DNA from: a virus
Reading direction: 5' to 3' (one strand)
DNA: 64,000 nt
IMG/VR virus record: IMGVR_UViG_3300020057_001228
Span: 64,001-128,000 of that record
Shown: one piece after another, positions 1 to 41,600 of the stretch
Position numbering within the stretch: the first letter of the stretch is position 1
Layout of the letters: every line of letters begins with the position of its first letter
Notes under the pieces: generated by a model
The model's database searches: none
What the model saw: only the letters and a program-made list of their open reading frames with translations
What the model was told of the DNA's origin: nothing
Program-made: the position numbers and the translations under genes

Positions 1-1
1 G

Positions 2-1045
2 TTGTTTGGTGTCGAGCCTGTATACTCTGGCCTCACTAACGAAGGACCTCACTCCGTAATCATCGACCTGACTACGGGTGAACGTACATCACAGTTACAG
101 ACTACTAACAACAACGATGCCACCCTCTCAGATACATTCTACTTTGAGTTAACTACAGCAGGTGATACAGCACAGGGTCAGGTAGAAGTACTTGGGACCG
201 TCACTGTTGGTGACCAGTTCAGCATCGTTATCAATGGCTCTACCTACACGTACACAGCCATACTGGGTGATACACCTATCACTGTAGCCGCTGCCCTAGC
301 TCCTTTAGTAGACGCTGATGCTAACGTTGTAGCCTTCACTGATGCTTCACCGAATGACGACATCGTTATCATCCAGGCTAACGCTATAGGTTCAGCTGGT
401 AATGCTATTACTCTAACTGCACCATTCGTTGCTGGTAGCGCCTCTCTAGTAGCCTCGGGTGCAACTCTAACTGGTGGTAGGAACGTCAACACACTATCTC
501 AGAACGGTGTTGTTACATTTAGATCGCAAGAGATGGTAGATGTACTGAACCCAGTCCCATTGACTGTGAATAGGCTACGTTCTGTAAACGTGACCACAGG
601 AATGACTGTTTTGGATGTAGTGTTAGCGTTGGCTAACGATATCGCTACCTTCTCTGCTACCAGTAGGATCCTAGGAGCCGTCAGAGCCCCTACAAGGTTC
701 GTCATTGAGGGTACACCATACAATGCACCTGGTCTAACGATCGTGCCTTATACGCGGGACACAGTGCATTACAACATTGTGTTTGATATGCTAACAGTAC
801 CTAGCGAATTGAAGTTCGCTGCGTTGCCTAGAATATTGATTGCTGATCCAATCCCTGTGTTCGATAATCTAGCTAAGTCTCTAGTACTTCCAGCTAAGAT
901 GCTAAACCCATCTGGTGGTGGTTCTACAACAGATGATACTCCTATCAGCCAGACCAACCAGGGACGTGTGTTCCTATCTGAACCAGCTCCTTCTGCTCGT
1001 TTCAAGAAGGCATTTGAAGCAATCCGTAGGTTAAACAACGAATGA
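2..1045 (+). CDS. Virion protein, 5'-truncated by the window edge
   Basis: The reading frame is open from the first bases. The first possible start is a TTG at position 2 with no room for a ribosome site, so the gene almost certainly begins upstream. Residues about 60-160 form a beta-rich domain (VTVGDQFSIVINGSTYTY ... ITLTAP ... TLTGG) of the kind inserted in contractile-tail sheath proteins, and a similar stretch occurs in the sheath gene at 1992. The C-terminal half is not recognised. Its last codons overlap the next gene by 4 bases (ATGA). Its position ahead of the sheath fits a tail, neck or second sheath-like virion protein. The domain resemblance is seen in the sequence; the role is inferred. 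Confidence 0.6.
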   Translation: MFGVEPVYSGLTNEGPHSVIIDLTTGERTSQLQTTNNNDATLSDTFYFELTTAGDTAQGQVEVLGTVTVGDQFSIVINGSTYTYTAILGDTPITVAAALAPLVDADANVVAFTDASPNDDIVIIQANAIGSAGNAITLTAPFVAGSASLVASGATLTGGRNVNTLSQNGVVTFRSQEMVDVLNPVPLTVNRLRSVNVTTGMTVLDVVLALANDIATFSATSRILGAVRAPTRFVIEGTPYNAPGLTIVPYTRDTVHYNIVFDMLTVPSELKFAALPRILIADPIPVFDNLAKSLVLPAKMLNPSGGGSTTDDTPISQTNQGRVFLSEPAPSARFKKAFEAIRRLNNE

Positions 1046-1980
1046 CAGATTACGTAGGTAATGCAGCGATCAATAATCGTACTGGAACTCATATCCAGGA
1101 GATTATTGAAGCTATCTTCATCAACCTAGCGGCACACCCGCTGATCAATAGCCCTCCGGTGTTTGATAAAGATAACAACCGTGTACGCATTACGTTGTTC
1201 AGGGACTATGATGGTATTGATCTTGAGAACACTGGTGGTGCTGGTGTAACTCTATCTATATTCCCGTATAGCTTCAGTAACAACCAGGATAACAACCTAA
1301 CAGTAAACAGCAGCAATGCCTCTATTGTGTTTAAGCCACATACTATCGGTAGGCTTGGCACACCTCAGGGTCCACTAGATGAAGCTAGGGCCCACATCAC
1401 ATTTAAGCTGCATGTCTTTGGGTACGATACACCTACTACAATGGATACCAACTTCATCGAGAACCAGGTAACCAAGTTCCAGCTCAACAAGAATCAGCAG
1501 ATCCTTAGGGTATGGGCTGAGACTTTGAGAATGGTACTTGTTAGCGATCTACAGAAGTTACCATCGGTGAATTACCCGATAAGAAACCTGCTGTCTAATA
1601 GCTTCTTAAACCAGATTAACTACGGCTCATCCAAGTGGGATGACGGTCCTAATCTGATCTTCCAAACAGCTACGATGCTGTGGGAGACTACGTATTATGC
1701 CAAGCGTAGTTTGGAGGACTGGAACCCTGTTGAGGTTATTGGTGGGAATGTTGGATCAGTCCCTGACCCAAACCCCTTAAATAATCCAATACCAGTCTGC
1801 TATAACCTGGCTCAGGACAGGTATTTTAACTGCAGTACCAACGATACCCTTACGAGGGATCAGTTGATTGACCCAGCTACGGGGACGTTCTATACTACTC
1901 TGGCGACTAACGTCATCAAGGTAGTAGATACAATCAACCCACAGCGGCAGAACTTTGTGACATTTAGTGATCAAGGGTAG
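1042..1980 (+). CDS. Putative tail completion/terminator-type structural protein
   Basis: This 312-aa soluble protein starts at an ATG overlapping the previous stop (ATGA) and ends 11 bases before the sheath start. The N-terminal part (HIQEIIEAIFINLAAHPLI, then a beta-rich region) suggests a compact virion protein with an N-terminal helix. No signal peptide or membrane segment is visible. In myophages the gene directly before the sheath is commonly a neck, tail-completion or terminator protein (T4 gp15 / gpU position), which is the main basis for the call. I do not recognise the family from residues alone. The last 60 residues contain three cysteines and a proline-rich linker. Confidence 0.4.
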   Translation: MTDYVGNAAINNRTGTHIQEIIEAIFINLAAHPLINSPPVFDKDNNRVRITLFRDYDGIDLENTGGAGVTLSIFPYSFSNNQDNNLTVNSSNASIVFKPHTIGRLGTPQGPLDEARAHITFKLHVFGYDTPTTMDTNFIENQVTKFQLNKNQQILRVWAETLRMVLVSDLQKLPSVNYPIRNLLSNSFLNQINYGSSKWDDGPNLIFQTATMLWETTYYAKRSLEDWNPVEVIGGNVGSVPDPNPLNNPIPVCYNLAQDRYFNCSTNDTLTRDQLIDPATGTFYTTLATNVIKVVDTINPQRQNFVTFSDQG

Positions 1981-1991
1981 GAGAGGGCACC

Positions 1992-3836
1992 ATGGCTCTA
2001 GAAAATAACCTATATCCTGATATCCAGTTTGAGGAGATCAACGACAGTCCTCGGCCTACCCAAGTTGGATCTACCAACCGTATTGGCCTAGTTGGAGTGT
2101 TTCGTAAGGGTCCAAACGGGACGTTCAGGTTGCGCAGCACGTTTGAAGAGTTTGCCAAGATGTATAGCGACACCACACATGCTGGTTCCGTTGCTGTACA
2201 AGAGGCCATGGACCAGGGTGCCGATGACTTCGGTATCATCCGTGTCATGGGTTCTGCCAAGGCAGCCTCTGGTAACATCATCTTCTCTACAGCTGTAGTA
2301 ACAGCCGGTAGTGTTGAGTTCACCTTCCAGAGATTCCAGGTAGACGGCGTCACCCAGATTGGTGCTGACGTTGTTGTAGCCATTGGCGTAACTGGTGGTA
2401 TGTCTGCTGCAGCTATTGCCAACGCAGCTGTAACCGCTATCAACGCTGACTCTGGTGTGAACACGTTCATCACTGCTGTCTACGACACTGGTGGTACTGT
2501 AACCATCCAGGCCGATACCAAGGCTGCTATCACCAACTACTACAAAGTTAAGTTGGAGATCCCTGGCGTTGGTGGTGCTGGTGGCGTAACCGTATCCCCA
2601 CTCGTAGCTACTTTTTTAACTGGCGGTGCCGATGGACCAGCGCGTTCCACAGCAATCGTTCAGGACCGTCAGGTTGTACCAGTTGACCTATTCAGGATTG
2701 ACGCAGCATTCGATGGTACCTGGGGCGACTTCGTTCAGTTCACTATCACGAATGGTTCTGTATCTGGTAAGTTCAACCTTATCGTTACTGACACGTTCAA
2801 TAGCCACCAGGAGTCTTACTTCGATCTAGACATCAGCAACCCACTAAACCTGGACGCTGACACCAATGAAGTTCTAGCCACTCGTGGCTCTAACCTCGCT
2901 CGTGTGTTCTACATTGGAGCTGGTACCTTCTCTGCTGAGCTTCCTGCTATTAGCACGGATGTTCCGCTAGTTGGTGGATCTGATGGTCCAGCGATCGAGC
3001 TAGATGACTATATTGATGCACTAACCACTCTGAAGATGAATGTCGCCAACATCATCCTATCCGCTGGTAGTGTAGACAACACGATTCGCGCTGCTCTAAT
3101 CGCACAGGCTGAAACGTCGGAGGCTATCTCAGGGTTCCGTCTAGCCGTTCTAAACGCTGGCAAGAACATGCCTATCGAGACTCTGGATACAGTGAGCTCT
3201 CCATTCAACACTACGACTGGCTCTGCCGTCATGGTTGCTGGTTGGGCTACTTACGCTGGTCAGCCACGTCTATCTAGGTTCGGTGGTTCTCCAGATGGTC
3301 TGTACGCAGGACACTTGGTAGCTACACCAATCCAGGTATCGCCTGCAGCTCGTAGCAGCTCTCCGTTCATCCAGAACATCGTAGAAGTTGATACCGTCAT
3401 GACAGGGCAGGCCTTCAACAACTACACCAAGGCTCGTATGGAAGCTCTTGTTCTTGATATTGCAACCGGTGGATTCCACTGCCTAAACGGCCGTACACTG
3501 TCTTCTGATGGTGCATGGTACTGGGTATCTGTCCGCAGGGTGTATAATCAGATCAAGTCCGACCTGTTCCGTGCAATCCAGTGGGTCAAGTCTCAGCCGA
3601 ACACTACGGCTATGCGTAACCAGCTCAAGCAGCAGCTAGATACCTACATGGGTCTACTGCTAGCCAGAGGGGTTATTGCTGCTACCAAGCCTTCGCTTGT
3701 TGACAGTACCAACAACCCACCTGATCGTGTGGCAAGCGGCTATCTCCGTGCAGAAGTTTACTTCGTGCCTGTATTCCCTGCAGACCACGTGATAATCGGA
3801 GTACGTAGGTTCCTAGCGGCTGATGTACTAGCGTAA
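1992..3836 (+). CDS. Contractile tail sheath protein
   Basis: This is a 614-aa sheath protein, the contractile outer tube of the tail. The N-terminus (NRIGLVGVFRKGPNGTF) is the usual 'vGivG.a.kGp.n.p' sheath opening. Residues about 90-215 hold an inserted beta domain ending in FLTGGADG. The C-terminal region (NNPPDRVASGYLRAEVYF, VPVFPADHVIIGVRRFLAAD) matches the conserved sheath C-terminal domain in which a sheath strand is exchanged with neighbours. Length is within the usual 450-700 aa. The start ATG follows GAGAGG with 5-base spacing. Its neighbours (tail completion upstream, tubes downstream) fit. It defines the phage as a myovirus. Confidence 0.9.
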   Translation: MALENNLYPDIQFEEINDSPRPTQVGSTNRIGLVGVFRKGPNGTFRLRSTFEEFAKMYSDTTHAGSVAVQEAMDQGADDFGIIRVMGSAKAASGNIIFSTAVVTAGSVEFTFQRFQVDGVTQIGADVVVAIGVTGGMSAAAIANAAVTAINADSGVNTFITAVYDTGGTVTIQADTKAAITNYYKVKLEIPGVGGAGGVTVSPLVATFLTGGADGPARSTAIVQDRQVVPVDLFRIDAAFDGTWGDFVQFTITNGSVSGKFNLIVTDTFNSHQESYFDLDISNPLNLDADTNEVLATRGSNLARVFYIGAGTFSAELPAISTDVPLVGGSDGPAIELDDYIDALTTLKMNVANIILSAGSVDNTIRAALIAQAETSEAISGFRLAVLNAGKNMPIETLDTVSSPFNTTTGSAVMVAGWATYAGQPRLSRFGGSPDGLYAGHLVATPIQVSPAARSSSPFIQNIVEVDTVMTGQAFNNYTKARMEALVLDIATGGFHCLNGRTLSSDGAWYWVSVRRVYNQIKSDLFRAIQWVKSQPNTTAMRNQLKQQLDTYMGLLLARGVIAATKPSLVDSTNNPPDRVASGYLRAEVYFVPVFPADHVIIGVRRFLAADVLA

Positions 3837-3845
3837 GGGTAATTA

Positions 3846-4130
3846 ATGTTAGCGGTATCTGATTTCTGTTATAGGTGCGGGGACTGCATTACAGCGTGCC
3901 CCGTACCTGGGACTATCACAAACATTCTCCCTGGCAAGGTCAGGATCAACTCCTTTTCATGTATTGATTGTAACCAGTGCATACCTGTATGCCGCTTTGG
4001 CCTCATTACAAAAGAGAAGGAAGCTGTGACTGAAGTGGAGTCTATTGATATTCTCGCTATGGCAGCACCAGATACCGTTGACGTACCTGCTGAAAAGAAG
4101 CCAGTACTTAAGAGGAAGCGAGCTAAGTAA
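3846..4130 (+). CDS. 2[4Fe-4S] ferredoxin-like protein in the tail operon
   Basis: This 94-aa protein carries two complete 4Fe-4S binding motifs: C8-x2-C11-x2-C14-x3-C18-P and C39-x2-C42-x2-C45-x3-C49. This is the arrangement of bacterial 2[4Fe-4S] ferredoxins, with all eight cysteines present. Residues 51-94 are an acidic-to-basic tail ending KPVLKRKRAK. The ATG follows AAGGG with good spacing, 9 bases after the sheath stop, and the stop overlaps the start of the tube-like gene (TAATG). It is therefore translated with the major tail proteins. Function is unknown: it could be a structural metal-cluster protein of the tail, an assembly factor, or an electron carrier. Fe-S clusters are known in some phage tail proteins (lambda gpL), but a stand-alone ferredoxin fold here is unexpected. 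Confidence 0.85.
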   Translation: MLAVSDFCYRCGDCITACPVPGTITNILPGKVRINSFSCIDCNQCIPVCRFGLITKEKEAVTEVESIDILAMAAPDTVDVPAEKKPVLKRKRAK

Positions 4131-5338
4131 TGGCTGACCAGGAACTACCGCCAATCCCACCCTTTGTTAATGACAGGGTGTACATTGACCTTCTTCCTAA
4201 AGAAGAGCAGAACCAGGTTGCTATCCTTAATGCTCGTCACGGTGGGCCTCTTGCTGACCCAAGCAAGCTTTTTAGCGAGGCGTTTCCATCATTGGGTGGT
4301 CTGCCTGCTGCCACATTGCCTACACCTGGTACCTCTTCTGAGGTAGCTCCCACATCTACTGAACGTCCTCTGCTTGATAGGATTATCAACCCGCCTGCTG
4401 AGCCACCTAGACCTGGTAGCATTCGCAACGTAACAGACCACGCTGGTCCAGATCCCTTCCAGGGCTTTGACGTTGACGTATGGATCCAGCGTATAGATCT
4501 CGTAGACAAGATGAAGGATTCCCTGCTTAAGAGTCCTCTAGCAGATAGTCATCATCATGGTGGTATGGTTCTGCTAGGTCAGTTCCAATCTGTCAGTATT
4601 GGTATCAAAACCACAGCTGAGGCATATCTAGAGTTTGATTCCCGCACTCCAATTTATATGGACGGAGAAGTACAAATAGTCTTCAGACTTGATAAGGGTC
4701 TGGTGGATATGGGTGTTCTTCAAGAAACATTTGGAGTAAACGTACTTGGTCGTAGGACCAGCTACAACGTTCTTCCAAGGTTCAACATTACTTTCAACAT
4801 CAATACGACTAGCTACAACTACATTGATGATAAGTGGGAGTCTGAGCTCAATGGGGTCGTCTCGTACGGTCAGAGGCCCTACAGTGACCTACCACCAGAG
4901 AATCAGTCACTCAGTAGAGCAGGTGGTTTGCTAGATGTTCTTACGAATGCAACAGGGTTATCACCAACTAGAGCTCTTGCTCCGATCAATGGTGAACCAC
5001 TACCAACATTCCAAAGACATGTGAACGGACGCTTTGTGCTCAAAAGCTGTAAGGTAAACTCGTTCAATATTGATGCAGGTGCTGGTAAGCAGGTTGTTGC
5101 CACACAGTGGTTAGGAGTAGCCGAGGAGATTGTATCTCTAGCAGGCGATCCACCTAACGTTGTGCATTCCAACAAAGGCGAACGGGGAGACTCAAACGCC
5201 GCGTTGGATACGTGGCCTGTAGGACAGGCTAATACACGGCTACCTTTGGAGAGCATCAAACGGGAAGAACGTGCAGGTGCGGCCAAGGATTTAGCCGGTA
5301 AAGCGTTTAGCGCAGGTCTAAGGGCATTGTTAGGATAA
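4130..5338 (+). CDS. Tail-tube-like protein, long paralogue
   Basis: This 402-aa protein starts with TAATG overlap. Its residues about 100-402 are a paralogue of the next gene. Shared stretches include DHAGPDPFQGFDVDVWI, TEAYLEF...YMDGEVQIVFRLDKG, RFNITFNINT and GKQVVATQWLGVAEE. The first ~100 residues are a proline-rich extension absent from the shorter paralogue, and there is an extra insertion around residues 230-290. Position directly after the sheath and the pairing with a ~200-aa protein fit a tube protein plus a specialised tube-end or baseplate-tube protein (as T4 gp19 with gp48/gp54). Tube identity is inferred from position and size of the core. Confidence 0.65.
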   Translation: MADQELPPIPPFVNDRVYIDLLPKEEQNQVAILNARHGGPLADPSKLFSEAFPSLGGLPAATLPTPGTSSEVAPTSTERPLLDRIINPPAEPPRPGSIRNVTDHAGPDPFQGFDVDVWIQRIDLVDKMKDSLLKSPLADSHHHGGMVLLGQFQSVSIGIKTTAEAYLEFDSRTPIYMDGEVQIVFRLDKGLVDMGVLQETFGVNVLGRRTSYNVLPRFNITFNINTTSYNYIDDKWESELNGVVSYGQRPYSDLPPENQSLSRAGGLLDVLTNATGLSPTRALAPINGEPLPTFQRHVNGRFVLKSCKVNSFNIDAGAGKQVVATQWLGVAEEIVSLAGDPPNVVHSNKGERGDSNAALDTWPVGQANTRLPLESIKREERAGAAKDLAGKAFSAGLRALLG

Positions 5339-5349
5339 GGAGTTCAATC

Positions 5350-5955
5350 GTGGCTGGTACTATCAAATCGATTACAGATCACGCAGGCCCGGATCCCATT
5401 CAGGGATTTGACGTAGACTGCTGGGTAAGCGACGCATCTGACGGTACAATGATCCTGTTTGGTTCATTCACGTCTATCGTTGTAACTATTAGAAACGCTA
5501 CTGAGGCGTATCTAGGACTGAACGAGCGTATCCCCCGTTACCTTGATGGTGAGGTACAGATCGCTTGGGTTATGGAAAAGGGAATGCTCGACGTCAACGT
5601 ACTCAAGCAGAGCTTCGGCTTCTCTGAGATGACTCGTATGATTCGTTTCAACCGTAGTCCTAGGTTCCAGATTACCTTCAACACAAACACATACGGTGAG
5701 CTGAACAAGAAGGTAACCCTTCTATCAGCACTACAGCCTATTACTGATCCAATGCGTGACCCAGATGGTCGTATCGAACTCGTGCGTGCTAAGCTAGACT
5801 CATTCCACTTTGCTGCTACTTCTGGTAAACAGGTTGTAGCTACCCAGTGGCAGGGTGTTTGCGAAGGTATTCGTGTATACGCTGATCACGTTGTTGGTCA
5901 GTACGAGAATGTACCTGGTGCAAGTACTGCACTACCTGGTATTACTGATACATAA
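5350..5955 (+). CDS. Major tail tube protein (probable)
   Basis: This 201-aa protein begins at a GTG preceded by AAGGAG and 7 bases. It has the length of typical myophage tube proteins and is paralogous to the longer upstream protein along its whole length (DHAGPDPIQGFDVDCWV, YLDGEVQIAWVMEKG, RFQITFNTNT, GKQVVATQWQGV). The beta-rich composition and position two genes after the sheath support its being the inner tube subunit. The shorter, insertion-free copy is the better candidate for the abundant tube protein, and the longer copy for a tube initiator or terminator. The call rests on genome order and family-like size, not on an invariant motif. Confidence 0.65.
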   Translation: MAGTIKSITDHAGPDPIQGFDVDCWVSDASDGTMILFGSFTSIVVTIRNATEAYLGLNERIPRYLDGEVQIAWVMEKGMLDVNVLKQSFGFSEMTRMIRFNRSPRFQITFNTNTYGELNKKVTLLSALQPITDPMRDPDGRIELVRAKLDSFHFAATSGKQVVATQWQGVCEGIRVYADHVVGQYENVPGASTALPGITDT

Positions 5956-5967
5956 TCTGGGGGTAAA

Positions 5968-7449
5968 ATGGCAGACCGCGTACCTGCGGCTATTGTCTTT
6001 GGCTTCAAGAATGGGCGTGCGCTAGAGGGTATGTTCCCTCTGTTCACAAGGGTACCTATAGCAGAATCGACCTATCCGACTGAGTTCACGAAGATCCTCG
6101 GAACTGTACCTGCACTTACGGGTGGAGCAACTTCCGGAACCTTCTTCTCAGACGGGTGGGTCCTTACTGCTATTAAGGTGAACCAAACTCGCTTCTGGGC
6201 CTGTGACACAGCTGTAATAACTATCTCTTTAGATCTCAGTGATCCTACTGAGCCTTTCCTACCTGCGCCAACACATCCTGAGCAGCCTCTCACGATCACC
6301 ATGGGGTGGACAGAGGACCTGTATGGGGTACCAGACCTAGCCCACCTAACAAGGGTCTTTACGGGCTACGTAGACACTGTGAGCTACAAGCTAACTCCTA
6401 CGAGAGTTATCGCTACGATTGCACTGAGAGACCCTATTAGGTTTCTAGTCGACAACAAGCTTACAGAACTGTTCACCGATACGTACGTGGCTGGACAGAA
6501 GCAGACAGAAGGCTCTGGTACTCCATTCCTACAGGGTGGTAGACAAGCTTTGATTCGTGCCCTGATCCGAGATGGTTCTGGTACTTTCTACGATGGTGCA
6601 CCAGCTATCCCAGACGAGCGTATCTACACACATGAATCTGGTAGACAGGCTATTGGTACCACGGTGGGTTCTGCACAGCAGGATGGTGTAAACGGTACTG
6701 GGAGTAAGGTGGGTCAGCAGCTCTTCGTGCACAACAGGTTCCCTATGGAGCTGATCAAGCATCTGTCTACAGTTGAGCCAACACCTATGGAGATCTATGC
6801 CGACGCCAGTGGTTATGTCTATTGGGATACACGTCGTACTCTCTTGGGTGATATAGAACTTCTTAGCGGCGAGAAGATCAGCTACAAACCAAAGGACTAC
6901 TACTTCAGGAACCCAGTCACGATAGATGCTTCTCATACAGATGGTGAACCACAGCCAATTCTATCTGGAACTATGGAGTGGTCGACCATTGGTACGATTA
7001 CCAAGTTCGTAGTATCTAACAGTGGCCCTGAGGGTGATAACAGTGTTGCCAACATAGGCTACATAGATCCTACTAAGGTACATGGCTTCGACATGGCACA
7101 GAAGACCAGGTTCATCTTTGATGACACGTCTGATAAGTCTGTGATGGAAACTGCTGCCTTCTTAGATGCTATGCTGCAGCTATGGGGTAAGGATGTCAGA
7201 GCTGGCGCCATCGAAGTAGAAGGCGACGCTACTATGACTCCCGCTAGGGCAGTACGGCTGTGGAGAGTAGGTCTCTATCCACCACCTGATAACATGTTTA
7301 GGGTTGAGTCTGTAGTACATCTGTTCAGTGGTTCAGGTGCTAAGAAAGGCTTCAGAACCAGCATGATGATTAGTGCTACTGAAGAGAGCCTTAGAGAGTT
7401 TACTACATACACCACCAAGGAGCCTTCTACAGTTAAACAGGAGTCCTAA
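5968..7449 (+). CDS. Baseplate hub protein (gp27/gpD-like)
   Basis: This 493-aa protein starts at ATG after GGGGG plus 6 bases. The middle carries the hub pattern: LTITMGW ... VFTGYVDTVSYKLTP ... IATIALRDPIRFLVDNKL (residues about 110-165), then FPMELIKHLSTVEPTPMEIYADASGYVYWD (about 255-290). This resembles the 'local basis function applied to a projected path' segment of hub proteins of the gp27, gpD and XkdQ type. Those proteins form the trimeric ring at the tube end and carry the spike. It lies directly before an OB-fold protein, as hub and spike genes usually do. Residue-level recognition is moderate. Confidence 0.6.
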   Translation: MADRVPAAIVFGFKNGRALEGMFPLFTRVPIAESTYPTEFTKILGTVPALTGGATSGTFFSDGWVLTAIKVNQTRFWACDTAVITISLDLSDPTEPFLPAPTHPEQPLTITMGWTEDLYGVPDLAHLTRVFTGYVDTVSYKLTPTRVIATIALRDPIRFLVDNKLTELFTDTYVAGQKQTEGSGTPFLQGGRQALIRALIRDGSGTFYDGAPAIPDERIYTHESGRQAIGTTVGSAQQDGVNGTGSKVGQQLFVHNRFPMELIKHLSTVEPTPMEIYADASGYVYWDTRRTLLGDIELLSGEKISYKPKDYYFRNPVTIDASHTDGEPQPILSGTMEWSTIGTITKFVVSNSGPEGDNSVANIGYIDPTKVHGFDMAQKTRFIFDDTSDKSVMETAAFLDAMLQLWGKDVRAGAIEVEGDATMTPARAVRLWRVGLYPPPDNMFRVESVVHLFSGSGAKKGFRTSMMISATEESLREFTTYTTKEPSTVKQES

Positions 7450-8453
7450 TGTATAACTTCTCCCTAGAGCATATTCGTGACCCCAACTTCATGCACGTTG
7501 GTGATAATACGATCACTAAGCATGCCTCTCATACACCTAGGCAGATTGGCTACATACTCAACGTTAACCCTGTAGACTATACAGCTGACGTTCAGCTAAG
7601 TGGAATCAACGGTAACAACGGACAGGCCATGGTTCTTAGGAACATCAAGGTGTCTGTCACGGATGGTGGATCAGGATGGGGTAAACACAACCTACCTCAC
7701 ATAGGACAGTTGGTAGAAGTTACGTTTGAGAACGGTCTTGTAACCAACTACACGAAGGCTACTATTGGTAACCGTTTCTATACAGCAGCACAGAAGGTTC
7801 CATTTCATCCTATGTTGCTAGAGGACAGAGCTTATCATAAGTCTCAGTTCGAGATGGCTGAGGGTGGTAGCTTTAAGTTCAAGTGCCACGATGGTTCTAT
7901 AACTGAGTTCAAGGCTAAGCCCCATACAGCAGAAGGCTCTAAGACCAACGCTAGGTCTACTGGTGTAGCACAGACAGCATCTGAAGCACGTATGGATAAG
8001 TCTCACGCCCAGCTGGACAGTATGAAGACCAAGCTGAAAGATGTTCAGAACAAGGCTTCCCAGGTGAAGGATCTAGCTGTGAAGGCTAAGAAGCTAAACC
8101 AGCTGAAGTCTTATATTGCTGATCTGCAACAGCGTGGTTATCAATCACCAGCTGGAACCACTAAGCCTTATGACCCATCTGCAAGCACTGCTGATTATCT
8201 ACATATCCTCAACTATAGAGATCCTGCACAGCTATCCACCATCATGACCGCTTTAGCACCGCTAGCTAAACTGAGTACCATCTCAGCTGGTGCTGGTACA
8301 TCTTACATAGCTCTATCCAATAACAACAACGATGCGTCCTTTATGACCGCTATCAAGTTGGCTTTGGGTGGTGCTGGTGTAAGATATAAGAGCGTGACAG
8401 GTGATTGGTACCTCACGTCTGATAAGACTACATATATTGTGGTGCAGCTATAA
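7449..8453 (+). CDS. Baseplate spike-complex protein with N-terminal OB-fold
   Basis: This 334-aa protein starts in the TAATG of the hub gene. Residues about 30-110 read as a gp5/gpV-type OB domain (IGYILNVNPVDYTADVQLSG, HNLPHIGQLVEVTFENGLV). Such domains join the spike to the hub trimer. Residues about 185-225 are lysine/glutamine-rich with heptad character (AQLDSMKTKLKDVQNKASQV), suggesting a trimeric coiled coil. The C-terminal 80 residues form a separate small domain of unknown type. The order hub then OB protein is that of known baseplates. No lysozyme domain is seen. Confidence 0.55.
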   Translation: MYNFSLEHIRDPNFMHVGDNTITKHASHTPRQIGYILNVNPVDYTADVQLSGINGNNGQAMVLRNIKVSVTDGGSGWGKHNLPHIGQLVEVTFENGLVTNYTKATIGNRFYTAAQKVPFHPMLLEDRAYHKSQFEMAEGGSFKFKCHDGSITEFKAKPHTAEGSKTNARSTGVAQTASEARMDKSHAQLDSMKTKLKDVQNKASQVKDLAVKAKKLNQLKSYIADLQQRGYQSPAGTTKPYDPSASTADYLHILNYRDPAQLSTIMTALAPLAKLSTISAGAGTSYIALSNNNNDASFMTAIKLALGGAGVRYKSVTGDWYLTSDKTTYIVVQL

Positions 8454-8737
8454 TGGCAAACATTCCTCTAGACGGTCAGATCCCATTCGAAGTCCTGAAG
8501 TACATGCGTGACCCAGGGCTTATTGCTATTGACGTAGAAGCCCTTACCAAACAGTCCACTACGACTGCTGGTGAATCAGCTAAGTTGGCTAAGGCTGCTG
8601 CGGATGATGCAGTTAAGTCAGCTGAGAACATGACATCAGCGGCTATCCAGACTGCTAACGCAACAAAGATACGCATTGAAGCTGTGCTATCTGCGATCTT
8701 GTCTGGTAGTCTCACTAACCCTCTGGCAGGTATCTAA
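8453..8737 (+). CDS. Small alanine-rich baseplate-region protein, unknown function
   Basis: This 94-aa protein has start and stop codons both overlapping its neighbours (TAATG at each end), so it is tightly coupled to them. The first ~30 residues (QIPFEVLKYMRDPGLIAIDVE) resemble the N-terminus of the upstream protein (LEHIRDPNFMHV) in a short 'xxRDPxx' way. Residues 35-85 are Ala/Thr/Lys-rich and likely form one long amphipathic helix. It has no cysteine, signal peptide or clear membrane segment. It may be a helical adaptor in the baseplate. I do not recognise a family. Confidence 0.6.
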   Translation: MANIPLDGQIPFEVLKYMRDPGLIAIDVEALTKQSTTTAGESAKLAKAAADDAVKSAENMTSAAIQTANATKIRIEAVLSAILSGSLTNPLAGI

Positions 8738-10851
8738 TGGCTGAAGCTGAAACCGTAGACGAGTGTGGACCAGCCTTTACTGCCGCTGCCGCTTCTAAAC
8801 GTGCGAGAGCTGCTTTAGCTACCGATCCTGATGTTGCTAAGAAGCTCATCAAGGAAGCCGAGGGCCTGGAGCAGATCGTCTCCAACCTACAGGTCATCAA
8901 AGACTCTCCTGGAATTCCTAGCAAGCAGGATATGATTGAGGCTAGCCTTCCTGGTAAGGGACCTGGTGATGTAGAGCAGGCGATGACCTTCTCTGACGTT
9001 GATGACGTTAAGCTACCTGTTGAAGGCTTACCGGATAGACAAGCTGTAAGTATGGAGACGGCTAAGTACTCTCAGGGTATGACTGATATCATGGCTATGC
9101 TTCTACCTCTACTGGCGTTAGCTGGTAGTGTATGGCAGACTCTCGGTGGCTTTGGCCAGATCATATCTATGTTCGATAGTATGACTGCTGCGTCTACTCC
9201 ACCAACCGGTCCTCTTACAGGTGATGCTAAGAAGGCAGAGGATGCTAAGTTCGCTATCAAGGTGGCTATCGAGGATGCTGGCTATACTATGGAGGATCTT
9301 AACGACCCTCTGAAGTCCAAGGAGATCGCTAAGAATGTAGAGATCCCTCCTACCCCAGGACTGTCCAGTAGCGCTATGTCTATAGATAACTTCATGGATA
9401 GGGTTATGCCTGTTATGCCCTGTGTAGCTGTTCCTAATGATCCTAATGTCAAATCAGATCTACCTAAAGGCTCAGGTGTTAAACAAGTCATTGAGACGGT
9501 ACCCAAGCAGATCCCTGGGTTGGTAGATTCATCTGCCGACAGCCCACCAGACTGCACGTTGGTTAACACCAACCAGTTTAGAAGTGACTCCAATATCTTC
9601 AAGGCTATTGGTAACCCTGCTGCTGCACTACAGGAAGACATCAGTCTCGCACAGGATCTGAACAACGTAGCTGGTCAACATCAAAACCTAGCAGCTGCTA
9701 TGACTAACATCAGTGACGCTGCAAAGAAGTTCGCTGAGGATGAGTTTACTGAGAGCCTAAGACTATCTATCAGAGCTCTTATCAAAGGACTCTGCACATA
9801 TAACTTCCAGACTGATGAAACTGGTAGCTTTGCTTCGAGTACAGCTCGTTCGTTGAAGTGGTGGAATGCCTTTACTCCGCCTCCTCAAACGTTAGATCCA
9901 ACTATCATGGAGAAGATCAACAACGGTGAGACTCTGCTACCTGGGGACATTACAGCGTACAACAACGCTATTGTAGATCTAGTTACTGCATCAGACATAG
10001 CAGCTTCGCCAGAGACTAGGTTTGGTTCTATGCCAGGCACACTGGTCCATGCAGCTATAGGTAACGATCCTTATGCTGGTACGCTGGATGAGTTAGTAGA
10101 CGATATCCCAGCACTCGTTGCAACCCGTGAGGGTATCGGCGGTGGTGGTGTAGCAACTATCCAAGCTGTGATCTTTGACCTAGGTCAGATCGACGCTAGA
10201 GTTCTTGAGATCCCTATCATCATCATGGGAGCAGACCCTAGGATCCAGACGTACACTACACCTGTTCAGCGTTGGATCCTCAGTATGAAGTATATCCTTG
10301 CACTAACCCCTGCAGAGAGAATTGCACTCCAGCTTGTTGAGACAGACATCTCTACGACATCACTCTTGTTCATCGAGCAGGTACGTGCGTCTACTGTAGA
10401 CTTCGATACTCTTTACCTAGCACTACTCCAACATAAGGTCCCCTTTGAACAAAAGCAGGATCTAGACGCACTAACAGCTGCTTGGGATATCCTCAATAGT
10501 GTTCTCGTAATCGAACCCCTACAGCAGTCTCCTGAAGCTGTCATGTTTTTAACTGAGCTGCTTGCCACGAGACCTTTGTTACCTGGTAGTGAGTCTCTAA
10601 CTTATGCTATTGAGCAGCTGGTAGAGTCTACACTAGCTATTGGTGGGCCTCTTGGTAGTGATCTAGCACAGCTATGTGGCGTCGTTGGTGCTCTACTCCG
10701 TTGTGACATGGTTCTTAAGTCTCTCACCATAGTAGATGAGGATAAGGAGGAGCGTGTTAAGGAGCTACTTGAGCATGCTGACGAGATGGCGAAGCCTGTA
10801 GAAATCCTACCTAACCGTGAGATCTTCCTGAACATCAGCGAGGTTATCTAA
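8737..10851 (+). CDS. Large baseplate-region protein, unknown function
   Basis: This 704-aa protein starts with TAATG overlap and ends with TAATG overlap into the next gene. The N-terminal ~90 residues are Ala/Lys/Glu-rich. A hydrophobic stretch (MAMLLPLLALAGSVW, about residues 118-140) could be a membrane-active or buried helix. The remainder is predominantly helical with long acidic segments and ends VKELLEHADEMAKPVE. Placement between the OB protein and the spike-like protein implies a virion or assembly role. No enzymatic motif was found. A tape-measure role is unlikely given its length relative to the 2958-aa protein downstream, but it cannot be excluded from sequence alone. Confidence 0.6.
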   Translation: MAEAETVDECGPAFTAAAASKRARAALATDPDVAKKLIKEAEGLEQIVSNLQVIKDSPGIPSKQDMIEASLPGKGPGDVEQAMTFSDVDDVKLPVEGLPDRQAVSMETAKYSQGMTDIMAMLLPLLALAGSVWQTLGGFGQIISMFDSMTAASTPPTGPLTGDAKKAEDAKFAIKVAIEDAGYTMEDLNDPLKSKEIAKNVEIPPTPGLSSSAMSIDNFMDRVMPVMPCVAVPNDPNVKSDLPKGSGVKQVIETVPKQIPGLVDSSADSPPDCTLVNTNQFRSDSNIFKAIGNPAAALQEDISLAQDLNNVAGQHQNLAAAMTNISDAAKKFAEDEFTESLRLSIRALIKGLCTYNFQTDETGSFASSTARSLKWWNAFTPPPQTLDPTIMEKINNGETLLPGDITAYNNAIVDLVTASDIAASPETRFGSMPGTLVHAAIGNDPYAGTLDELVDDIPALVATREGIGGGGVATIQAVIFDLGQIDARVLEIPIIIMGADPRIQTYTTPVQRWILSMKYILALTPAERIALQLVETDISTTSLLFIEQVRASTVDFDTLYLALLQHKVPFEQKQDLDALTAAWDILNSVLVIEPLQQSPEAVMFLTELLATRPLLPGSESLTYAIEQLVESTLAIGGPLGSDLAQLCGVVGALLRCDMVLKSLTIVDEDKEERVKELLEHADEMAKPVEILPNREIFLNISEVI

Positions 10852-11966
10852 TGTCATTCCAAACAGCAGCAGCGGTAGCCTTAGGGGAAGTCTCAAAGGC
10901 CGCGTCATCTGTAACTAACCAGGTACAAACCAACACCAAGGCAGCACAGTGTCTGTTGTCTCAGTCTCAGACTGGTAAGAACCCAGCATCAAAGATCAAT
11001 CCACCAACCAAGAACAACCCAGCTAAGTACGAAGAAGACGACGAGGCTATCGTACGCGGGTCTGCTATGTGGTTGGCTAAAGTCATGAACAGGGCCAAAG
11101 CGTCCATCGAAGACGTACACAAGTACACCAGTAAGAAGGTTGGAGAATCTAACGTTGACGGGGATTTTAATTCTAATACTGCTCCTGGGTTCTCTGACAG
11201 GCTGGCAAAGATATTCAAAGACATTTCCAGAATCGCCACCGCCGTTACAGCCAATAAGGATCAAGGACATACAGTACAGAAGAATGCTGAGATCCTGGTC
11301 AACGTATCAAAAGTAACCCATAATCAAGCTGGTTCTGCCATCTACAACGAGGCGCCCATACTAATCAACGCTGCCCGTATCTTAGTCACCAGAGGTGTGC
11401 TACAGATCACTGAAGTGGCTGATAGGATGACTAAAGCAGATACAGATCAGTATCGGGTTAACCACCAGGTTATCTCTGCTAACCGTATCTCTAGGTTGAT
11501 CACGGGAAGTGACACAACAGCAGTAGATGGTGACTACAAAGTCATCCAAAAGAACTCTGCCAAAGATATAGTATTCCAGGCAGGCCGAGACTTCATCGCT
11601 AAGACCCTTAACGGGGCCATAAAGCTCTTGTCTAAGACTCTTGTAACCATAGAGGCACAACAAGGGATAGACATCGCTGCTGGGGGTGCTATGACCCTTA
11701 GCTCAGCTGCGTCAGTTACAATGAAAGGCTCAGCTATCGATATAACTGCAGCTGGTATTATTAACTTAGGTGGTGGTTCCCCAGGTAGTACACCATCGGT
11801 GCCATCTGCGGATTCTATCGAACCTCAGAACCTAACAGCTATTCCTAAAATCACAGCGGAAGCTACTGACAAGAAACCAGGAATGCTGTTTGAGACTAGA
11901 CCAGGGTTAAACCCACCTGGAGCAGTACTACCGCGGGTTAATAAGAACGACGAGCCGAATAGGTAA
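10851..11966 (+). CDS. Spike-like protein with C-terminal beta-repeat region
   Basis: In this 371-aa protein, residues about 225-310 read as short repeated beta strands (IVFQAGRDFIAKTLNGAIKL, IDIAAGGAMTLSSAASVTMK, GSAIDITAAGIINLGG). This is the pattern of the triple-stranded beta-helix or beta-prism of T4 gp5C and VgrG tips ('i.v.a...i.l.a.g.i.i'). The N-terminal half is helical and may be an anchoring domain. The C-terminal ~55 residues are proline-rich. It probably forms the membrane-piercing needle or a component of it, sitting on the OB/hub complex encoded upstream. No terminal HxH iron-binding tip was seen. Starts with TAATG overlap. Confidence 0.6.
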   Translation: MSFQTAAAVALGEVSKAASSVTNQVQTNTKAAQCLLSQSQTGKNPASKINPPTKNNPAKYEEDDEAIVRGSAMWLAKVMNRAKASIEDVHKYTSKKVGESNVDGDFNSNTAPGFSDRLAKIFKDISRIATAVTANKDQGHTVQKNAEILVNVSKVTHNQAGSAIYNEAPILINAARILVTRGVLQITEVADRMTKADTDQYRVNHQVISANRISRLITGSDTTAVDGDYKVIQKNSAKDIVFQAGRDFIAKTLNGAIKLLSKTLVTIEAQQGIDIAAGGAMTLSSAASVTMKGSAIDITAAGIINLGGGSPGSTPSVPSADSIEPQNLTAIPKITAEATDKKPGMLFETRPGLNPPGAVLPRVNKNDEPNR

Positions 11967-11971
11967 CAGCT

Positions 11972-12445
11972 ATGGCAAATCCTTTTGTTATTGATGCCTT
12001 CGACCCAGCAATACTGGGTGCTGATTTAGCGTGGACTGCTGCGTCAAATAGAGCTAAGGATCTACGTTCTGGTGATCTTATGATGACCTCAACTGGAGAT
12101 ATAGCTTTAGTGGAGGGTGTTCAGCTCGTCGTTCAGTTGCGTATCAGAGAGCTAACTACACCTCTTGGCTACTTTGCTCAGGTAGTAGAGGACATCAATG
12201 GTGTGACTATCCTTGATGCTGACTACGGTAATCCAACGTACACATATCTGTCAGAGCCAGCTAACACACTACCCCTGGAGCTGATTGCAGAGATGTGTAG
12301 GGATATTATGCTCAAAGATGCACGTATCAAAGATGCCAGAGTTAAACCAAACATCGACCCTGGAACAGGTAACCTAGTCATCCAGGTGGACTTCAGTCTC
12401 ATCGACGGAACACAAGCCGAGCTGGCTCTATCCCTAAATCTGTAG
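11972..12445 (+). CDS. Baseplate wedge protein, gp25-like
   Basis: This 157-aa protein matches the gp25/W family. It has LRSGDLMMTSTGDIALVEGV, then QLRIRELTTPLGYFAQ and LDADYGNPTYTYL, the usual 'G.i.lv.g.....qai...L.t..Gel....dyG' series. Gp25 initiates sheath assembly on the baseplate. The C-terminal part (IDPGTGNLVIQVDFSLIDG) fits the family's final strands. Its position immediately before the J-like gene is the classic W-J-I order. The start ATG lies 6 bases after the previous stop and uses AGG within that gene's last codons. Confidence 0.8.
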   Translation: MANPFVIDAFDPAILGADLAWTAASNRAKDLRSGDLMMTSTGDIALVEGVQLVVQLRIRELTTPLGYFAQVVEDINGVTILDADYGNPTYTYLSEPANTLPLELIAEMCRDIMLKDARIKDARVKPNIDPGTGNLVIQVDFSLIDGTQAELALSLNL

Positions 12446-35608: not shown

Positions 35609-38600
35609 GTGGCCGAGAGCAACTTATTTGAAGACCAGGGTCAATTACTATCTGGTATGGGTGCCAGACAGCAAGCGACACCTAATTCTTCGCTGTTCGT
35701 AACCTCCTACGAGGGTGAACCTAAATATATTAGTACCTTGAATCTACAAGGTGCTAATATCCTCATGTCTCAACCACAGACAGCGTTTGACTCTGCTCGT
35801 CAGGCGAAGCTGTTTGAGACTCATAAGAACATACATCCGTTTAAACAGGATATTCTGTTCCACGCTAAAGCAGCTGTAAGGACAGTATCTGGTATCCCAC
35901 AAGAAGCAGCGATGCTTACTTCTAACTTGACTCCCTCAGGACATGGTAAGAACACAGACTTCTGGGGTAACCCTTATCACAACCAGCTGAACCTGGGTTA
36001 CAACATTACTGATAAGAAGGTAATGTCCGAGCTGAACAGCAAGCTAGCCGTCTTACGTAGTGGTAACCTACCAGCCGCTCATAAGGGCGATAGTATCTTG
36101 GTAGGTGGGCCTGGTACTACAACGCTAGGTAGTCAGGTAGCAGATCTCATCAAGCAGAGTCGTGGCACTATGACCATGACATCAGCTACGATATCTACGA
36201 ATTCAGAAGCTGTAACTGGTGCTATCCGTGACAAGCTGACCCGTGGCGATACTGTAAACCTGTACGTTGGTGGTGTATCAGAACAGGATCGTAAGTCTGG
36301 CGCAGCTAGCGTTAAGGCTTTAATGCCATTCGCCACAAAGAACAACCTGAAGGTTTTCAACCTACCACCAGGCGCCTCATCCCACGCTAACGTCTATGCG
36401 TTCCAGAATGGTTTGATGCTCATCGGTTCTGCTCGTGACTCCGATCAAGCTATGGGCGGCAACAACGTTGAGATGCTCCTAAAGGTTGTGGACAAGGGAG
36501 CTGGTGTTCAGCTCAAGAAGATCCTAGACCAGCACTTCACTGAGTCTCTAGATCCCTATAAGATGTACCAGGCTAGCGCAAAGCTAAGCACAGATACTGT
36601 CTTTCGTTCTGATGAAATCTGGAAGTCTGTTAGACAGGTAACTGGTCTCTCTGAGCAGCGCTATCGTGTCGATCCGTTTATCCCTACAGATGTACGTAGG
36701 GGACTCAAGAATGAGATCGGAGCTGAGCTAGCTCGTAAGGGTATCACTGACCCCAGTGTGATAGCTGAAGAGTACAGCAAGCGGGTACGTGGGTACTCAC
36801 AGCGTGGTGTCTATAGCTACATGTACTCTAGTGCTTACCAAGAGGTGAATGGTAGGACTGGACGTAACCTAGTACCAATGGGTCCACCAGAGATCCCGTA
36901 CGCTATCCGTATTGCGGATGAGAAGGCTATGGCTCTCACACAGGGAGACAAGTGGGCCTCTCACTGGGCTGTACAGAACTACGCTAAGGTCGCTGGTGAC
37001 CTAGGTGTGGGTATTGACCTATCAGAGTTTGCTCAGCGTGAAGGCCGTGGTATGGCAGCATCGCTGATCTTAAGCCACGTCCACCAGTACGAGAAGAGCT
37101 CCTACCTCAAAGAGGTCGATGAGCGCTCTCATAGTGAGTACAGGCCTAACCTAGCAGGGTTCCAAAAAGGATTCCTTGAGTCTGGCTTAGAGTCAATCTT
37201 CGATGGTACTAACTCGCTAATCATGATGGGTGCTATGTACACCTATGGTATGCGTTGGGTAGCTAGAGACCTGGCTGACATCCAAGGCCAGTTCATGACA
37301 GCGATGGCCCATAAGATCGATGGAGATCTGTATGCTAATAAGCTAAAGGCTAACAACCATGCTGGCCGATGGGCTGTTCGTGGCGCAGCTAAGATGCTAA
37401 ACGTCATGGGTAGTTTTACCCACGGTATGATGGCTGGTCTATCTCTTGGTTCTCTTAACACCTACAACGAGACTATGCGTGCCATCTTCCCTTCAACCGT
37501 AAACCCTATGGAAAAGACTATGCAGTCTGTTGTATCCAAAGGTGGAACTCATGCTGACGTAGTAGCCGCGGTTAACAAGGTCTGGATCGGTGCTGCCAAC
37601 ACTGTAGAGAGGGCTATTGATAAGACTATGCTAGAACACATTGGTAGTGTTCTCCGCAACTTTATCAAGAAGCAGACGCCAGTAGGCCTTCAGAAGGCTA
37701 TGCACAACGCTCTCAGAGGCGCAGGAGCAATGAAGGGCATGGGGGCTGCTCTCCTAATGGCAGCCAAGAGTAACGTAGGGGTTCGTGGGGCTCTGGGAGC
37801 TGCTGCGTTTAGTATCGCTACAGGTATCACAGCATGGAACTCTCTCTATGCTTCTCAGTCTGCAGCTACCCAGTTAACCACAGGGGAACAGATCACAGCG
37901 CAGAAGACCATCGAGACAATCTTTGGTGATCAAATTCGTGTGCCTCTTACCATGTACAGAGCTGGGTATAACCCGACTGCAGTCTCTACATCTGTAGACA
38001 CAATGATCGCAGCCTCTCTAGGAGCTGCTGTCGGCGCAAAGATAGGTGGACCTAGAGGCGCTCTTGCTGGCGGTATTATCGGTGCTGCCGGTGTCCTAGC
38101 TGGCGGCCTTAGTCCTGGCTTTGCATACGAGAACTACATTAGGGTACCACTACTCAATAACTATGAGATGGGTACGTACGACTTCCTAAACCACGGAGCC
38201 TACAGGGCGGGTGGTGCAGTAGCTGGATTCGGGGCAGGTGTAGCCTATGGCACCCTGTACGCACGTAGGTTTAGCACACCTCGCCACATCGTAAGTGGCA
38301 CGGTTGTATCCACTGTAGCTGGTATCATCGGTGGAGTCGTTGGTGCTAACCTGAACCACGTCATTGCTGGTCTAGCCGGCACTCAGTGGAAAGCTCACCA
38401 TATGGAAGGTGCTGAGCACAGCTGGGTAGTCCTTGGTAACAAGTTCAACCAGGCTGCTGGTTACCTTATGGCTGCTAAAGAAGCTAAGGATCGCTACCTG
38501 AAGAAGGGCAATCCTGACGACATGAAGCTATGGTATCAGCTGAACCAGAAGGCCCTTGCCTACAACCACATGCGTGGTGATGGCACAGCCGGTAACATGG

Positions 38601-41600
38601 TTGGTATCGTTAACCAAATCGGTCACCCAATGCTAGGTGTGTTGGCCATGGGTGAGGTCATTAAGACTGACCAGGCTAACCGTGTTAAGACCACATACTT
38701 CGTAGGTATCCAGGGCCCATTCCACGTTCAGATGGGTATTGGTTTGGTTGCCCCTTACCAGAAGGTAGAAACACGTAACGAGCACGGAGCAATACAAACC
38801 CAGTGGGAGTACGCTCCTGATACTGTAGCTGGTGGTTTAATCAGCGCAGCTGCCTTCCCAGTCGTAGGTTTAATATCTGCTGGAGCTATCCTTGGTTCTG
38901 CCTATGGTTGGAAACCAACTGGTAAGCTCGGTCTGGCTGTAGGTGTAGCTAAGTACAACATTGCTGTAAACCCTCTAGGCCTGGCAGCTAAGCTAACCTC
39001 TGGTGCATGGAACATCATCTCCTCTGCTGCTGAAGCTACCCGTAATGCTGGTAAGCCTATGGGCAGAGCAGCTTTACCAAGGTACCGCGTAACACCAGGT
39101 GTCATCGGTTCCATCGGTCTAGCATCTGCCTTCGCTACTGCTATTGGTATGCAGTGGGCAGGAGCCAGGGCTGCTCTTATCGCGCACAGTGGTGACAATA
39201 TCGGTGGGCGTATGCGCGAGATGACCAACGTTAGCCAAGACATAGAAGCTAATGGTGGTAGGAACCTTACCAACCTAGCGTTCGTATCTGGTGCTCTAGT
39301 TGGTGGAGCTTCCGGTTTAGGTGGCTACAGACATGACACCTTAGTCAAACACCCAGGTATGAGTAAGACTCAAATGGCTAGAGGTATGGGTCTAGCTGGT
39401 GCCTACCGTGGCGCCGTCGTAGCCTTTGCTATGGCAGGACTAGCAGAGCTAGCGAGTGCTTACGGTGCTCCTACCTTCATGAACAACATCTGGCTACAGG
39501 TAACAGGGTTCGGTCAGAAGGTTAATAAGGTAGATGGTGGACTTAGCACTAAGATGCGTAGGGCTAACCATACTACGGATGGCTTCCTCGGCAGCTATGA
39601 TGTCATTGCATCACAGATGTCTGCTAACGAGAACGCTCCACCAACTGGTGCAAACTGGTGGGCAATAACGCTTCGTAACATATCTACTCTTCCCAAGGCT
39701 ATTTACCTAGGTATCTCTGCACCGTTTGTAGGAGCTGGTGGTGCAGCAGGTGTCAAGTTTGGTGACCAGACAGGTGACGGTGCGTTATCCTACCCAACGT
39801 CATTCACGCAGGCGCAGTACCCAGGTCAGGACTTCACGATGTCTACCACCACATGGGGTAGCAAGACGATCAAGCCTGACGACATAGCTATGTACATGGA
39901 TGTCTTAAGTAAGTCCCCTGAGTGGCTACGTACGCATAGGCATACCCGTAACCCTCGTGTATCTGGGACCATGTTCTACCAGAGTGGTGCTCTACAGGAT
40001 GCATCTCCATCTGTACGTATGGCTGTTACCCAAAGGCTCAACATCCACAAGTGGGCACTAGGCGCATGGGGTGACGAAGTAGCTAACTACATGGGTATCG
40101 ACCCTGTAACTACTAAAGGCCAGATGTCTTACCTCACTTCCAAGGGTAGTGGGTTCCAGATGAAGCGCTTCGAAGTAAAGCTAGGCTCGCTGAGCAACGT
40201 CATCAAAGACCAATTCAGGAACATTGAGAAGTACATTACGACCAAAGGAGAGTACGTAGAAGTAGACGGTGTAAACCAAGCCGAGTTCCAGGCTCGTAGT
40301 GAAGAGCTATGGACTAAGCTACAACGCTATAGAAGCAAACTAGGTTCGCCTGGTGCTGCTACCTTTAACGCGTTTGCTAAGAGTGATAGCGATGACATGG
40401 TTAACATGCTCGTTGTTACAGCCGGTGCCGCATCTCTTGGTATGTACGCTGTACGACAGCTGTTCATCAATGGTAGTACTGACAAGAGTGGCCTGCTGCA
40501 GAGGATCACACGCTCTTGGCAAGGTGCTATGACTAACTTGGCTACTGCTCTTGGTGGTAGTGAAGCTCTACAGAACCAGAAACTAGGTACCCATATTCAG
40601 ATGGTCAGGCCTCTAGGTCAACCTATGCGTTGGGACCCAGTAGCAGAAGCTATGAAGGTAACTCAGCAGAGTCTTGTGGACACACTTAAGGTAAGTGCTG
40701 AGCCATACTACCTAGACTCCAGGGTAAAGCTGCATTATGTAGTCACCGGCCACCACTACTTTGCACCTGGTGGTGTATCGATGGTAGATGAGATGACTAG
40801 ACGTCTAGTTAACAACCAGGTTGGTAGGTTCGAGGTAGCGTTCCTACAGGGTAAGATAGCCGCTGGGTTCACCAATGCGTTCGACACACCTCTAACCTAC
40901 AATATGATTGAGCATGGTCTTGTACAAAACATCCAGCTCATGTCCCAACACATCACTGACTCGCGTACAGCTCTTATCAACTTGCTAAACCACGCAGGTG
41001 GGAGCGAGGCTGGTATCATGCCTCAGTTCCAGAACTACGTAGACAGAAGTGACGCTTTGCTCGCTAGGGCTAATAACCTATTGGCTATTCATGTACCAGG
41101 ACATGTTGAGGTAACTGATAAGGAGCTTCTAGCTCTTACCAGGGGTATCGCTGAAGATGTTGAAAAGCTAATGGTAGAGGCCCAGGACCAGCACGGATTC
41201 GTCCGGTTTGGTCTAGGTGCTGAAGCTAGTGACGTTACCTTTAAACAGGTGCACATCGACGCAAAGACCATGTCCAAGTCAGCTACAGCTTGGCAGTGGA
41301 CCAGGAAGATACTTAGCGGTGCCTTTGGTGCTGATCACCACAAGAGAGTAGCAGTACAGTTAGAGGCTGAAAGAGTAAGGGCAGCTAGCGTACAGTCATC
41401 CAGAGGAACATCCCAGACCTTTGAAGGAGCTCGCTACAAGAGGACCACTGGCCCACAGGCTAGATCTGTAGCAATGTGGACTCGTAGTCTGCTTGGTGGC
41501 AGCATGGGTGATGAACTCCATGAGATGACCACTGGTGAGCTAGCAGCGAAGAACGTTGGTTTAGCAGCCGCTAAGGGTGGTAGTAGTATTCTAGCCATAC

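Follow-up and report, generated by a model that had tools for sequence, protein, structure and literature searches.

The window, by which we mean the whole 64,000-nucleotide stretch of DNA analysed here, comprises bases 64001–128000 of a 166,577-bp (166.6 kb) IMG/VR virus record (IMGVR_UViG_3300020057_001228) and carries a contractile-tail operon (Table 1), in which a short ORF encoding a 2[4Fe-4S] ferredoxin-type protein follows the sheath gene. A preliminary description of this DNA gave the coordinates, length and cysteine positions of the ORF exactly, and its placement of the gene between sheath and tube holds with one refinement: the next gene encodes a 402-aa tube paralogue, after which comes the 201-aa tube protein. 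The overlapping start and stop codons that were also claimed exist downstream, where the ferredoxin stop codon TAA (4128–4130) overlaps the ATG at 4130 of the next gene, but not upstream, where the sheath gene stops at 3836 and the ferredoxin gene starts at 3846, leaving a gap of 9 nt.

Table 1 Features of the tail operon around the ferredoxin gene (window positions)
Feature	Position	Strand	Evidence and remarks
312-aa protein 5′ of sheath	1042..1980	+	phrog_34839 (function unknown), E=4.5e-6; present in the ferredoxin carriers and in L054
Tail sheath protein, 614 aa	1992..3836	+	phrog_30392, E=4e-51; phrog_23, E=3e-25; 30% to the annotated tail sheath of Ma-LMM01 (tblastn)
2[4Fe-4S] ferredoxin-type protein, 94 aa	3846..4130	+	C8/11/14/18 and C39/42/45/49
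TAATG stop/start overlap, ferredoxin/tube paralogue	4128..4132	+	Sequence; kept in 3/3 carriers
Long tube paralogue, 402 aa	4130..5338	+	phrog_34837, E=6.5e-25; alignments
Tail tube protein, 201 aa	5350..5955	+	phrog_34837, E=1.4e-39; AlphaFold2 model matches tail tubes in the PDB
Probable baseplate hub protein, 493 aa	5968..7449	+	Weak PHROG baseplate hub match, E=0.009; gene order
Baseplate/spike-region protein, 334 aa	7449..8453	+	Weak PHROG baseplate matches, E=0.002-0.005

The AlphaFold2 model of the 201-aa tube protein (mean pLDDT 62) matches tail tubes of phages and of contractile injection systems in the PDB, with a best E value of 8.5e-7, and alignments divide the long paralogue into a variable N-terminal extension, the tube core and a C-terminal extension. 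The 312-aa protein, judged by its position, would have a neck or tail role. No Rfam family was found in window positions 1–12000, and promoter- and terminator-like matches between 1800 and 6200 are about as numerous as in shuffled sequence. Microcystis phage Ma-LMM01 and Microcoleus phage My-WqHQDG have related sheath (~30-34%) and tube (~36%) proteins encoded in the same order; there, a single tube gene directly follows the sheath gene and no ferredoxin is present, whereas the window has the ferredoxin gene and two tube genes. At the start of the window, an ORF at positions 1–1045 (with L043:2997-5045) encodes a 682-aa protein whose region 386–483 matches phrog_165 (tail sheath), which may point to a shared sheath-like insert domain.

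The ferredoxin contains two intact CX2CX2CX3C motifs in one small protein. In profile searches judged against the curated gathering cut-offs of Pfam, it matches the dicluster families Fer4_10 (E=1.8e-8, 34.6 bits, cut-off 25.5), Fer4_7 (E=3.8e-8, 34.1 bits, cut-off 27) and Fer4_9 (30.8 bits, cut-off 27), and from its sequence it very probably binds two [4Fe-4S] clusters. The core of ~58 aa resembles that of bacterial-type ferredoxins of the clostridial kind (PF13237/PF12838). The phage protein departs from these in its basic predicted pI (~8.1-8.7), in an additional C-terminal segment of ~36 aa ending in KRKRAK, in an invariant loop, PGTITxILPG, and in its location in a tail operon. The classical clostridial ferredoxin has a computed pI of 4.05 and a spacing of ~19 residues where the phage protein has 21 between C18 and C39. 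The charge of the basic C terminus is given little weight here, because its coding sequence overlaps the following gene's Shine-Dalgarno region, and this overlap may partly constrain it. None of the many ferredoxin-like NCBIfam families among the matches listed reaches its threshold, nor is the cut-off for FdxA-type equivalogs reached (NF045490, 24.3 bits against 135; NF058577, 30.0 against 65), so the protein is best described as a generic bacterial-type 2[4Fe-4S] ferredoxin claimed by no specific subfamily. Its AlphaFold2 model, made from a three-sequence alignment, is poor (pLDDT 42). With eight cysteines the ferredoxin stands out among the products of the structural operon, most of which contain 0–2 (the probable hub has one) and a few 4–6, and no second ORF with a ferredoxin-type motif is present in the whole record.

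Scans of IMG/VR for sheath relatives yielded two further carriers of the gene, IMGVR_UViG_3300049847_000132 (L002; ferredoxin 64% identical along its full length, sheath 76%) and IMGVR_UViG_3300049846_000908 (L009; ferredoxin 43%, sheath 56%). The order of sheath, ferredoxin and long tube paralogue is common to the window and both relatives, thus down to 56% sheath identity, and so is the TAATG coupling to the long paralogue. All eight cysteines are kept in both, as expected of the 2[4Fe-4S] ferredoxin first proposed, and the three proteins also share, without any change, the non-cysteine stretch PxPGTITxILPGxVxIN, located between the clusters and around them. The claim of a free-standing ferredoxin-type gene within the sheath–tube operon is thereby borne out and extended to relatives, although a third relative, L054, lacks the gene. 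The record is a metagenome record, which could raise the thought of misassembly or of bacterial contamination; this explanation is refuted by independent contigs of two other metagenome records, on which the gene occupies this junction in diverged sequence, and we give it practically no credence. A degenerate DNA pattern for PGTITxILPG, which picks up exact versions of that motif only, found no further ferredoxin beyond L002 and L009 among 2.9 million viral contigs; another match was a chance one in a helicase-like gene. A DNA-level search for the ferredoxin gene in phages gave no match.

Between the window and L002, core dN/dS is 0.11 for the ferredoxin and 0.125 for the sheath, whereas synonymous sites of the ferredoxin are saturated in the other carrier pairs; by this measure the ferredoxin core is under purifying selection on a par with the sheath. 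GC content at third codon positions is likewise close for ferredoxin and sheath in the window (0.47 and 0.49) and in L002 (0.50 and 0.49). Judged by the similar dN/dS and the close GC3 in these two phages, the ferredoxin gene is a long resident that co-diverged with the tail genes. In L009, the GC3 of the ferredoxin gene (0.67) is somewhat below that of the sheath gene (0.77).

The search for a cellular source returned best matches of 30-43% identity and ~30 bits; a sample of 207 bacterial genomes from two phyla, which may not include the host, gave no match at E<=1e-8. Two GTDB matches (L038 and L039) were rejected as sources, because the Fer4 domains concerned belong to larger redox proteins, or to redox operons, of bacteria. 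Also rejected were the tblastn match in Pseudomonas phage Y11 (OQ572412), which sits inside a formate-dehydrogenase-like operon, and those in three faecal ‘phage’ records (H1-H3), in which the neighbours look bacterial or unrelated and no tail genes were recognised. We note that several records labelled as phage, L003 (OQ572412.1) and L046-L048 (MT83xxxx), have bacterial-looking gene neighbourhoods.

Ferredoxins have been met in phages before, as candidates for auxiliary metabolic genes. Such genes are found in phage structural operons too, and one of the ferredoxins concerned, cyanophage petF, is a photosynthetic 2Fe-2S ferredoxin. According to the available portions of the two reports, petF (PMC2984593) and the ferredoxin of Lake Baikal Nitrospirota phage VP_99, which is 86% identical to that of its host (PMC7678222), were both proposed to be auxiliary metabolic genes; both belong to tailed phages, and those portions describe a sheath–tube placement for neither. 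By analogy, and as an alternative left aside in the preliminary description, the protein in the window could be a soluble low-potential carrier whose gene simply happens to lie in the late operon; it would donate electrons late in infection to an oxidoreductase of the host and would not touch the tail. Its intact cluster motifs, like those of ordinary electron carriers, agree with this, as do the patchy presence of the gene and its absence from L054 and from all more distant relatives examined. No close cellular source comparable to the host gene of the Baikal phage was found, however, the pI is basic, and, despite deep divergence, the gene has kept its position and its stop/start coupling to the tube gene. 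Among the products of the record are a ribonucleotide reductase (barrel and TSCPD domains), a thymidylate synthase and a family A DNA polymerase, but no ferredoxin-using enzyme or phage redox partner was seen in the scanned parts. A role as auxiliary carrier is kept alive by the dispensability of the gene in L054 together with the intact motifs, and we regard it as the main rival reading, of real substance though less likely than not.

In L054 (IMGVR_UViG_3300049893_001839; 57% sheath identity), the genes for sheath, long tube paralogue and tube follow one another in the same order, but no ferredoxin gene is present at the junction or on the rest of the 40-kb contig, a genome fragment outside which a copy may lie. 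Where the carriers have the ferredoxin gene, L054 has a strong GC-rich hairpin (GGGGCGGG/CCCGCCCC; L054:7177-7210) followed by T-rich sequence, which may lower transcription from the sheath gene into the tube genes. The L054 sheath gene (L054:5001-7166) encodes an extra insert of ~90 residues that none of the three carriers has. L009 is the first branch of the sheath tree, with L054 as the sister of the window and L002 together (support 96/96), and only 6% of bootstrap trees set the carriers apart as one side of a branch. Because L054 nests among the carriers, which do not form one clade, two changes are needed; the simplest history that the tree suggests, though not proven, is one ancestral gain followed by one loss in the L054 lineage. 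More distant sheath relatives with downstream sequence, including the Ma-LMM01 and My-WqHQDG types, have no ferredoxin. Since these sheath and tube paralogues occur in L054 with no ferredoxin gene beside them, the ferredoxin cannot be a tail part that is required throughout the group. A comparison with L054 revealed no clear docking segment specific to the carriers, either in the sheath or in the long tube paralogue. The ORF is real, conserved and under selection, and at the same time dispensable.

The terminator-like hairpin of L054 suggests that the junction tunes the expression of sheath against tube, which, with the conserved TAATG coupling, is consistent with the ferredoxin fold having been co-opted for a small protein of purely structural or regulatory function (such as an RNA-binding protein or a translation-coupling cistron that sets tube expression), with clusters serving folding only. 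We consider this unlikely, as a mere coupling cistron needs no eight cysteines and residues beyond the cysteines are strongly conserved.

Iron–sulfur clusters are present in the tail hub proteins of phages lambda, R4C and T1 (PMC10721106, PMC10276861, PMC11945409), where their function is still described as uncharacterised (PMC10721106). Like lambda gpL, the R4C hub and T1 gp36, the ferredoxin is an Fe-S protein encoded with tail genes. Unlike them, in which a single cluster is held by a four-cysteine domain of a large hub protein, it is a separate protein with two motifs in a contractile-tail operon, and at 94 aa without the C-terminal four-cysteine hub domain, it is not a hub of the gpL type. 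In the literature searched, there is no report of a ferredoxin linked to, or fixed between, tail sheath and tube.

We tentatively favour, at slightly less than even odds, the reading in which the ferredoxin is a phage-adapted accessory Fe-S protein, associated with the tail or a partner in its assembly; that it is a structural Fe-S part of the tail, as first suggested, is plausible. This preference derives from the conserved position, the coupling, the divergence from cellular ferredoxins and the basic pI. It is strengthened by the retention of the junction, the TAATG, the eight cysteines and the PxPGTITxILPGxVxIN stretch in three phages, by the lack of a redox partner among the proteins scanned and of another ferredoxin-type ORF in the record, and by the precedent of Fe-S clusters in tail hubs; it is weakened by L054, which builds the same tail gene order without the ferredoxin. 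As a tail-linked accessory protein, the ferredoxin would be made late, as a product of the sheath–tube operon, and its translation would be coupled to that of the tube paralogue, whose start codon overlaps the ferredoxin stop codon. It would fold about two host-supplied clusters and would bind sheath or tube, perhaps the long tube paralogue, serving as an assembly factor or as a minor tail component, and might be either absent from the virion or present in it. The benefit could be better tail assembly or stability, yet one that a phage can dispense with.

A further suggestion was that the protein is a redox switch or sensor, in which oxidation of the clusters would control tail assembly, or contraction and ejection, according to the redox state of the host or the environment. 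The position of the gene and the general sensitivity of 4Fe-4S clusters to oxygen are in line with such a role, and the cluster of lambda gpL has been called oxygen-sensitive (PMC10721106). A free-standing protein, however, offers no clear route for passing a signal on, and the ferredoxin is dispensable in L054, which makes a switch or sensor improbable. We hold it to be very improbable that the cluster state of a ferredoxin built into the tail gates assembly or contraction, making the tail a redox-responsive injection machine.

We know of no earlier free-standing tail-associated ferredoxin; if it is tail-associated, the present protein would be the first known of that kind. The carriers (the window, L002 and L009) and L054 provide natural plus/minus pairs for distinguishing a function of Fe-S proteins in building the tail from one in the metabolism of the host.

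Some other ORFs were observed in passing. Window positions 35609–44485 contain a giant ORF of 2958 aa that lacks cysteines, has an SLT transglycosylase domain and gives a weak PLD-like match, and L042:4437-13238 a giant ORF of 2933 aa with no Pfam match. A 147-aa ORF on the minus strand (L041:19070-19513), which may not be a gene, has 16 cysteines and no Pfam match. Near the start of the record, L040:5210-5821 and L040:4089-5024 (minus) encode a protein whose N-terminus looks J-domain-like to the eye and, according to Pfam, an SPFH/Band 7 protein.
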